This document shows, one piece after another, positions 53,292 to 54,802 of a stretch of DNA of 64,000 bases. The stretch's first letter is position 1, and every line of letters starts with the position of its first letter. The position numbers and the translations under genes were made by a program. The notes beneath the pieces were generated by a model that saw only the letters and a program-made list of their open reading frames with translations, was not told where the DNA came from and did no database searches. Source of the stretch: Ignavibacteriaceae bacterium (GTDB lineage: Bacteria; Bacteroidota; Ignavibacteria; Ignavibacteriales; Ignavibacteriaceae); assembly GCA_014860115.1 (NCBI GenBank), contig JACZKK010000166.1, positions 1-64,000 on the forward strand. Reading direction: 5' to 3'.

Positions 53292-53382
53292 ATGGCGGAG
53301 AGGGAGAGATTCGAACTCTCGGTCCCGCAAGCGGGACAACGGTTTTCGAGACCGCCCCGTTCAACCACTCCGGCACCTCTCC
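53292..53382 (-). tRNA. tRNA-Ser(CGA), 3' CCA encoded
   Basis: Minus strand GGAGAGGTGCCGGAGTGGTTGAACGGGGCGGTCTCGAAAACCGTT...GTTCGAATCTCTCCCTCTCCGCCA; long variable arm. Confidence 0.92.
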
Positions 53383-53387
53383 AATAT

Positions 53388-53630
53388 TCACAAGTTAAGT
53401 AATTTTTTAAATGCATTCCCACTTTTGTAGGATTTAATTTGTCTCTCTCTTTTTATAGCATCTGACTTAGTATCAAATCTTTCCATATGAACCAGTTTCC
53501 AAGGTTTGTAAGCTTTTGTCGATTTAACCTTTCCTGAGTTATGATATGATAATCTCCTGTCAAGATTCTCCGTTGAACCGATATAATATCGAATAGTTAC
53601 TAAACTTTTAATTATATAAACGAAATACAT
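53388..53630 (-). CDS. single-domain GIY-YIG nuclease (URI-type)
   Basis: MYFVYIIKSLVTIRYYIGSTENLDRRLSYHNSGKVKSTK; start at 53630. Confidence 0.9.
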   Translation of the reverse strand: MYFVYIIKSLVTIRYYIGSTENLDRRLSYHNSGKVKSTKAYKPWKLVHMERFDTKSDAIKRERQIKSYKSGNAFKKLLNL

Positions 53631-53640
53631 TTTACCTAAA

Positions 53641-53720
53641 AACGGTTTTTTCCGCCTTTGGCGGAACCCCGCTGAAAGCGGTGGCGAGACCGCCCCGTTC
53701 AACCACTCCGGCACCTCTCC
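53641..53720 (-). pseudogene. truncated tRNA-Ser(CGA) copy interrupted by a 35-bp twin hairpin
   Basis: 36 nt identical to 5' half of the intact tRNA (53685-53720), then 35-nt insert, then AAAACCGTT (53641-53649). Confidence 0.85.
53650..53684 (-). repeat. twin-hairpin palindromic element
   Basis: Minus: CCACCGCTTTCAGCGGGGTTCCGCCAAAGGCGGAA = CCGCT-TTC-AGCGG plus TTCCGCC-AAA-GGCGGAA. Confidence 0.8.
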
Positions 53721-53732
53721 AAAAAAATCCAA

Positions 53733-54131
53733 CTACACTTTTACCAGTCTAATAATTATCAAGCTGAATTTTATAACTATGACCATTAATAAAGAACCCA
53801 AAATGTTTGCAAGCAAATCCAATTTATTGAAGCTTCGGCTTGGAATAAATAACTGATACAATTCATTTAACATTCCAAATATAGTTGTTAAAAGTAATGT
53901 AAATGAAGCAGAATATCTCTTAAATAAAGATATTCTGGCTTGAAAAGTTAAAGTAAAGAACACAATAAAGCTTAAGAAGGCGTAGGCACCAAGGTGATAA
54001 TATTTATCAACTCCATTCGATTTGATCCCGGTTGATTGTGGTAATGAAGAAAGGACAACCAACACAATACAATAAAAACAGAGAATTGTAAAAAGAATAT
54101 GTAGACGGTATTTAACTAAAAATTTATACAC
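53733..54131 (-). CDS. VanZ-like membrane protein
   Basis: KYYHLGAYAFLSFIVFFTL; NELYQLFIPSRSFNKLDLLANILGSLLM. Confidence 0.75.
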   Translation of the reverse strand: MYKFLVKYRLHILFTILCFYCIVLVVLSSLPQSTGIKSNGVDKYYHLGAYAFLSFIVFFTLTFQARISLFKRYSASFTLLLTTIFGMLNELYQLFIPSRSFNKLDLLANILGSLLMVIVIKFSLIIIRLVKV

Positions 54132-54376
54132 TAATATTTGGAATTTATTTTAATGATTTAAAATAAGTTAGCATCACACCGAATTAAAAGTCAAATTTAT
54201 TTCATTATTTAACTTAATAACTGCTTTTGATGTCCTTCTACTCAATTATTCCCGGCAGTTTACGAAATAAATGAATCTATTGACATTCAAGTTATTGAAA
54301 TTCAGTTTGAACCTCAATCATTTCATTTTAAATCTGAATTTTTGTGAGGTATTTAATATATTTGCAGTCCAAATTC

Positions 54377-54463
54377 GGAGAGGTGCAAGAGTGGCTGAAT
54401 TGGCTACCCTGGAAAGGTAGTGTACTCGCAAGGGTACCGTGGGTTCGAATCCCACCCTCTCCG
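54377..54463 (+). tRNA. tRNA-Ser(GGA)
   Basis: GGAGAGGTGCAAGAGTGGCTGAATTGGCTACCCTGGAAAGGTAG...GGGTTCGAATCCCACCCTCTCCG; long variable arm; CCA not encoded. Confidence 0.93.
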
Positions 54464-54489
54464 CAACTTTTCTTCATTATCAAGTTATT

Positions 54490-54729
54490 ATGTACTCTGT
54501 TTATGTACTTTTCAGTAAGAAGCTAAACAAACGTTACATAGGATCTACCCAGGATGTTGATCAAAGGCTAAATGAACATAATCTTGGCAAATCTAAATTT
54601 ACATCGGGTGGAATTCCTTGGGAGCTTATTTACAATGAATCATTTTCTACAAACTCTGAGGCAAGGAAAAGAGAGTCATTTCTTAAATCGGGTGTTGGTA
54701 GAAAATTTCTTGACCAAATTCTACAATAA
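54490..54729 (+). CDS. single-domain GIY-YIG nuclease (URI-type)
   Basis: MYSVYVLFSKKLNKRYIGSTQDVDQRLNEHNLGKSKFTSGGIPWELIY. Confidence 0.9.
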   Translation: MYSVYVLFSKKLNKRYIGSTQDVDQRLNEHNLGKSKFTSGGIPWELIYNESFSTNSEARKRESFLKSGVGRKFLDQILQ

Positions 54730-54744
54730 TCTTACTGTGAGTTC

Positions 54745-54774
54745 TGAGCCAAAGGCTCATCAGCCTCTGGCTGA
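54745..54774 (+). repeat. twin-hairpin palindromic element
   Basis: TGAGCC-AAA-GGCTCA followed by TCAGCC-TCT-GGCTGA. Confidence 0.7.
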
Positions 54775-54793
54775 GAATCTCTCTCTCTCCGCA
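54775..54793 (+). pseudogene. tRNA-Ser 3'-end fragment
   Basis: GAATCTCTCTCTCTCCGC differs by one base from GAATCTCTCCCTCTCCGC at the 3' end of tRNA-Ser(CGA). Confidence 0.6.
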
Positions 54794-54802
54794 CTTCATT
54801 AA

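Follow-up and report, generated by a model that had tools for sequence, protein, structure and literature searches.

Short GIY-YIG nuclease genes and hairpin-bearing partial tRNA copies recur beside tRNA genes in several bacterial phyla

The Ssn proteins of Neisseria are single-domain GIY-YIG nucleases that act on single-stranded DNA and are linked to repeated hairpin sequences; we know of no link between them and tRNA genes. In the tRNA region of T-even phages, SegB is a free-standing GIY-YIG homing endonuclease that drives the tandem amplification of segments made up of tRNA and nuclease genes (PMC13096335). Integrative elements that use tRNA genes leave behind a partial tRNA copy (PMC9897764). 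Here we describe short GIY-YIG genes that are combined with whole and partial tRNA genes, first in a single stretch of bacterial DNA and then more widely. The arrangement is found again at many tRNA genes, across several bacterial phyla, and the sequence pattern points to a widespread minimal selfish element.

The window, meaning the whole stretch of 64,000 nucleotides that was analysed, comes from an Ignavibacteriaceae bacterium (contig JACZKK010000166.1). The original prediction held that it contains two tRNA-Ser units, each with a GIY-YIG ORF of about 80 amino acids and twin hairpins with 3-nt loops, and ARAGORN, Rfam, Pfam and a hairpin scan confirmed both. The units are made up as follows.

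53293..53382, minus strand: intact tRNA-Ser(CGA) of unit 1 (ARAGORN; Rfam tRNA E 1.2e-10)
53388..53630, minus strand: GIY-YIG nuclease ORF of unit 1, 80 aa (Pfam PF01541 E 5e-18)
53641..53649, minus strand: tRNA copy of unit 1 resuming past both hairpins with AAAACCGTT, the anticodon arm's 3' side (junction between tRNA positions 36 and 37)
53650..53666, minus strand: ORF-proximal hairpin of unit 1, TTCCGCC-AAA-GGCGGAA (hairpin scan, fold test)
53669..53681, minus strand: outer hairpin of unit 1, CCGCT-TTC-AGCGG (sequence, fold test)
53685..53720, minus strand: copy of the tRNA-Ser(CGA) 5' part, positions 1-36, unit 1 (direct repeat D1)
54377..54464, plus strand: intact tRNA-Ser(GGA) of unit 2 (ARAGORN; Rfam tRNA E 5.2e-10)
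54490..54729, plus strand: GIY-YIG nuclease ORF of unit 2, 79 aa (Pfam PF01541 E 2e-16)
54735..54744, plus strand: T arm 5' side of the tRNA-Ser copy of unit 2, CTGTGAGTTC (sequence)
54745..54759, plus strand: first hairpin of unit 2, TGAGCC-AAA-GGCTCA (hairpin scan; stem also in locus L201)
54760..54774, plus strand: second hairpin of unit 2, TCAGCC-TCT-GGCTGA (hairpin scan; stem also in L201)
54775..54793, plus strand: T arm 3' side and tRNA 3' end of the copy, unit 2, GAATCTCTCTCTCTCCGCA (direct repeat D3)

Both units therefore combine an intact tRNA-Ser gene, a GIY-YIG ORF of about 80 amino acids and, beyond the ORF, a partial tRNA-Ser copy. The ORF of unit 1 lies upstream of its tRNA, 5 bp from the tRNA 5' end, and that of unit 2 starts 25 bp past the tRNA 3' end; each is on the same strand as its tRNA. 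The 5' copy in unit 1 is identical to the tRNA (100% across 38 bp, direct repeat D1). A pair of abutting triloop hairpins splits one loop of each partial copy: in unit 1 the anticodon loop, between GGTCTCG and AAAACCGTT, and in unit 2 the T loop, between GAGTTC and GAATCTC, exactly at the boundary of TTC and GAA. The hairpins had been predicted to adjoin a tRNA fragment, with the outer one abutting it; the adjacency stands, but the hairpins lie inside the copy rather than merely next to it. The core GCCAAAGGC, expected in the ORF-proximal hairpin of each unit, was found in both. Since the two hairpins of unit 2 are close to reverse complements of each other, this insert can also fold as one long hairpin. 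The hairpins of L201 have the same stems as those of unit 2 and a different loop.

The nuclease is the sole ORF inside the units, and no site-specific recombinase is encoded there. As in homing endonucleases, a GIY-YIG domain with conserved catalytic residues is present: Y5, Y16, R26, H30, E62 and K66, which are invariant in 14 tRNA-linked relatives, all occur in both window ORFs. By sequence profile, UPF0213 and SLX1 GIY-YIG proteins (1zg2, 1ywl, 7cq2) have the same domain. UPF0213 proteins are not, to our knowledge, tRNA-linked mobile genes, and SLX1 works with a partner subunit. A mobile group I intron was considered and rejected, the tRNA being uninterrupted and Rfam giving no intron match up to an E value of 1 over 52000-56000. 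The window's own genome holds a third unit, at a tRNA-Leu(CAG) gene (L002). Elsewhere in the window, a 574-aa ORF (48866-50590) has a GIY-YIG domain in its second half (G000:C7:49532-49744) and an N-terminal half that, by eye, resembles a DnaQ-type exonuclease, and three adjacent CxxCH-rich ORFs on the minus strand (54850-58316) probably encode multihaem cytochromes.

A survey proposed with the original prediction would have counted against it had tRNA ends and twin hairpins turned out not to be associated with GIY-YIG ORFs. We ran it, and the association held on all three counts: distance to tRNA genes, duplicated tRNA ends and, as described further below, twin hairpins. To measure distances, every short PF01541 match and every tRNA match was collected from three single-contig genomes of the order, and a cut-off of 300 bp was applied. 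Seventeen of the 28 GIY-YIG clusters fell inside this limit, indeed no more than 111 bp from a tRNA and in 17 of 17 cases on its strand, whereas random placement put a mean of 0.3 clusters near a tRNA (maximum 4 across 20,000 draws). In other orders of the phylum, 43 of the 49 best-scoring loci had a tRNA no more than 300 bp away and without exception on their own strand, although that search used a profile of tRNA-linked ORFs and is biased to their clade, so that 17/28 is the unbiased figure. Relatives were also present in Patescibacteria, at tRNA-Glu and tRNA-Tyr in a Roizmanbacteria genome. Within the order, GIY-YIG matches at E<=1e-10 occurred in 162 of 164 genomes, a count that includes long UvrC-type proteins. 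In an Opitutales locus, the hairpin-armed tRNA copy was read as tRNA-Ile by ARAGORN; at L152:682-760 such a copy was called tRNA-Ile(GAT). Hairpin-armed copies may pollute tRNA catalogues.

The architecture was compared across 119 tRNA-linked loci, 81 with the tRNA first and 38 with the ORF first, of which 39 had more than one ORF; Pro(CGG) is over-represented in this set because those loci were fetched deliberately. Fragments of the unit's own tRNA adjoined the ORF in 108 of the 119 loci, as against 10 of 119 for a control tRNA of another isotype. The mirrored order predicted for the two window units (5' piece-ORF-tRNA and tRNA-ORF-3' piece) was borne out and proved general: type A has 5'-half pieces upstream (72) and type B 3'-half pieces downstream (144). 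As in integrase elements, a whole tRNA stands at one end and a partial tRNA at the other. Serine tRNA, which had been named as the target, is the commonest (38 loci) but not the exclusive one, at least 15 isotypes being represented.

Mapping of 90 distinct junctions within the tRNA fragments showed that the hairpins either interrupt a loop in the copied tRNA or take the place of one of its arms. Inserts made without loss of tRNA bases touched a loop in 32 of 35 cases, loops making up about 41% of the tRNA. In Pro, Val and Lys units an entire arm, the anticodon arm, was exchanged; the five Cys loci have all exchanged the segment that runs from the anticodon loop to the T loop, and the hairpin sequence is a different one in most genomes. 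Arrays of 2-5 units were found, with ORFs in most cases 93-100% identical, and the pooled pN/pS between neighbouring units was 0.14, indicating purifying selection on the ORF. Broken ORFs (L062) and ORF-less, hairpin-bearing remnants (L178, G040) also occur. At L178, a tRNA-Pro(CGG) locus of G040, hairpin-bearing partial copies flank the tRNA on both sides with no nuclease ORF, which has the look of a remnant. In G021 and G024 (L170, L172), the partial copies upstream and downstream of the tRNA carry hairpins that are identical or almost so inside each genome yet differ from one genome to the other; this within-genome likeness suggests homogenisation.

A tree of 96 ORFs grouped the tRNA-linked ORFs into a single large clade, with most of the other ORFs forming another, its deep branches being weak because few alignment columns were available. 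Isotype labels changed 20 times on this tree, compared with 48.8 times when shuffled, and none of 200 shuffles came as low. The Cys, Asn and Asp ORFs each form a single group, and the order of types A and B switches within isotype groups. The unit 1 ORF belongs to a Ser-only group (support 99/97) with isoacceptors CGA, GCT and TGA. The four nearest relatives of the unit 2 ORF (L201, L260, L269 and L268) all lie at tRNA-Ser(GGA), two per type, and belong to another family or other orders. Judged from these sequences, ORF clades follow tRNA isotype, and even isoacceptor. The link between short GIY-YIG ORFs and tRNAs is a property of the one clade but not of its sister, whose short ORFs lie away from tRNAs and beside dispersed palindromes: long palindromes, for instance of the GTCATGCTGAACTTGTTTCAGCATGAC type, were present no further than 260 bp away at about 20 of 25 sister-clade loci (which include L004, L006, L045, L048, L054, L058, L059, L069, L012 and L029), compared with 3 of 25 control stretches. 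The sister clade is a possible GIY-YIG counterpart of REP/RAYT.

We consider it probable, if by no means assured, that the units are minimal selfish cassettes of the homing type, each with a nuclease specialised on one tRNA gene. Such a cassette would consist of one gene for a single-domain GIY-YIG nuclease of about 80 amino acids together with an incomplete copy of a single, particular tRNA gene. We infer that the nuclease breaks the cognate tRNA gene in a cassette-free genome, and that recombination through the tRNA sequence then copies the cassette in, such that one whole tRNA would be kept or rebuilt with a partial copy on the far side. Exchange 3' of the interruption would give tRNA-ORF-3' piece (type B, unit 2) and exchange 5' of it 5' piece-ORF-tRNA (type A, unit 1), which would account for the mirror-image orders, and repeated rounds or unequal exchange could generate the tandem arrays. 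The ORF lies near the tRNA and points the same way, so it is probably co-transcribed with it. The palindromic inserts most likely keep the partial copy from serving as a target and from competing as a tRNA, or else are a DNA structure that the nuclease reads. In favour of the cassette stand the link to tRNA genes, the own-tRNA fragments, the target-specific ORF clades, the arrays, the filled and empty sites described below, and the selection seen on the ORF and on hairpin pairing. Against the cassette reading, the protein carries no DNA-binding domain beyond the GIY-YIG fold. Searches of phage and plasmid collections returned weak, distant matches and no good ones.

The hairpins bear on this reading in several ways. 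Scanning the window for GC-rich perfect hairpins (stem >=6, loop 3-5) gave 8, of which 3 belong to the units and 1 is a tRNA variable arm. We rejected the idea that the hairpins are ordinary genome-wide repeats, given these 8 in 64 kb and the several inserts that have stems of only 3 bp. When folded as single-stranded DNA, the hairpin stretches of both units beat 200 of 200 shuffles (z -4.2 and -3.5). GC-rich twin triloop pairs, the third element of the proposed survey, numbered 37 against 4.7 expected. Under shuffling of the inserts, those that are exact twin hairpins over their whole length were likewise in excess (15, 12 of them in the T loop, versus 0.35 expected), as were single hairpins (37 versus 8.5), and many of the remaining inserts narrowly miss the strict definition. 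Nine twin inserts showed compensatory changes at 5 of 8 pairs and were 98.6% paired, which none of 500 shuffles equalled. Additionally, the triloops of the twin hairpins are mirrored in polarity: the loop of hairpin 1 reads purine-N-A on the top strand in 28 of 37 pairs and on the bottom strand in none, and that of hairpin 2 does so on the bottom strand in 23 of 37, with 2 cases on the top strand.

Some of these properties give weight to the main rival of the homing cassette, a structure-guided single-strand element. Here the twin hairpins would be the ends of the element, a nuclease related to SLX1-type structure-specific enzymes would nick beside hairpins in single-stranded DNA during replication or transformation, and a strand or circle would move, in the manner of IS200/IS605, into folded tRNA loops. 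The preference of lossless inserts for loops (32/35), the retention of pairing while the hairpin sequence changes and the mirrored triloop polarity are all consistent with such a route, as are the presence of SLX1 among the profile matches and the dispersed palindromes adjoining the sister clade. However, neither an HUH nor a tyrosine transposase is present, and GIY-YIG enzymes act by hydrolysis, so that joining would have to be supplied by the host. Moreover, in some units the hairpins are single or absent, and the partial tRNA copies suggest homologous exchange. We regard a single-strand element as unlikely.

Filled and empty sites were found at a tRNA-Pro(CGG) gene between yajQ and pyrR. 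G042 carries three identical units there and G043 and G039 the tRNA alone; the upstream flanks are 92% (G043) and 87% (G039) identical to that of G042, and the array begins at the tRNA 5' end. At this one locus, then, close relatives have filled and empty forms, as a homing element would leave. G042 also differs in its whole tRNA, an allele with 83.5% identity to that of G043; both the site and the allele may have changed in either direction. An empty site for the window's own units was sought by way of the adjoining VanZ-like gene, and no synteny was found. Among species of the G042/G043 genus there are three tRNA-Pro(CGG) alleles, and among the loci beside pyrR/yajQ (L118-L120, L157-L196) species whose PyrR proteins are 99% identical carry tRNAs of only 83.5% identity. 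One allele is exactly the same in several other genera, which implies that tRNA alleles change hands. The comparison of G042 with G043 raised the idea of self-protection by an altered tRNA. We rejected this as a general explanation, since tRNA-Pro(CGG) has one and the same sequence in carriers (G012, G013, G021, G024) and non-carriers (G016, G018, G019) of genus g6. With the carrier tRNA unaltered, cutting in the tRNA body would make the nuclease attack its own carrier, unless its activity were controlled or it read beyond the tRNA. The nuclease site may reach past the tRNA or be recognised by its structure.

Such patchiness also bears on a function at the level of RNA, in which the hairpin-capped partial tRNA would be a leader, tail or decoy and a resident nuclease would regulate or process the tRNA transcript. 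The ORF and tRNA are always co-directional and close, and the altered parts are loops and anticodon arms, which matter in tRNA folding; both would suit this explanation. We nevertheless think it improbable, in view of the patchy distribution among close relatives, the empty sites and the tandem amplification, and a selfish element better fits the ORF-less remnants (L178) and broken ORFs (L062). Passive hitchhiking, whereby a small ORF is caught in tandem duplications at tRNA genes acting as duplication hot spots, would produce arrays of near-identical units but is already disfavoured and very hard to credit, as one nuclease clade sits at tRNAs across phyla with its clades tracking isotype, and neither compensatory hairpins nor a pN/pS of 0.14 is expected from chance capture.

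The homing-type cassette gives a role, a target and testable substrates to one large clade of abundant short GIY-YIG proteins. Since each protein is paired with a predicted target (the adjacent tRNA) and an altered copy of it, target recognition by a very small nuclease becomes testable. Cassettes of this kind account both for false tRNA calls and for stray pieces of tRNA genes; they may also lie behind the patchy replacement of tRNA alleles. A bolder proposal, which we advance tentatively and judge somewhat more likely to fail than to hold, is that a single-domain nuclease plus a tRNA half with a mirrored triloop hairpin dyad would be a complete and categorically new class of mobile element. 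Each lineage would be locked to one isoacceptor, DNA structure rather than sequence would mark the end or self-copy, and movement would swap the host tRNA allele, amounting to a natural tRNA-gene drive across phyla. No prior description of the element was found among the open-access journal papers that were searched.

The combination has some of the defining features of SegB-type, integrase-element and REP/RAYT systems and lacks, or leaves open, others. Like the present units, SegB is a small GIY-YIG nuclease gene adjoining tRNA genes; unlike them, it resides in a phage genome and is not accompanied by hairpin-interrupted partial tRNA copies. The SegB work (PMC13096335) reports no chromosomal family in bacteria whose members are each specialised on a particular tRNA, and the present units are single-ORF units of about 300-450 bp. 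Integrative elements in tRNA genes also have a whole tRNA at one end and a partial one at the other (PMC9897764), whereas the present units encode no integrase but only a nuclease, bear hairpins in the partial copy and occur with both 5' and 3' pieces. REP/RAYT (PMC2817692) and IS200/IS605 (PMC6006769) resemble them in combining a small endonuclease gene with short flanking palindromes and structure-marked DNA, and short palindromes do flank the enzyme gene here. RAYT and TnpA are HUH/tyrosine enzymes, however, and in place of the HUH (Y1) endonuclease of REP/RAYT the present units have a GIY-YIG domain, with a tRNA gene and its partial copy as the target.
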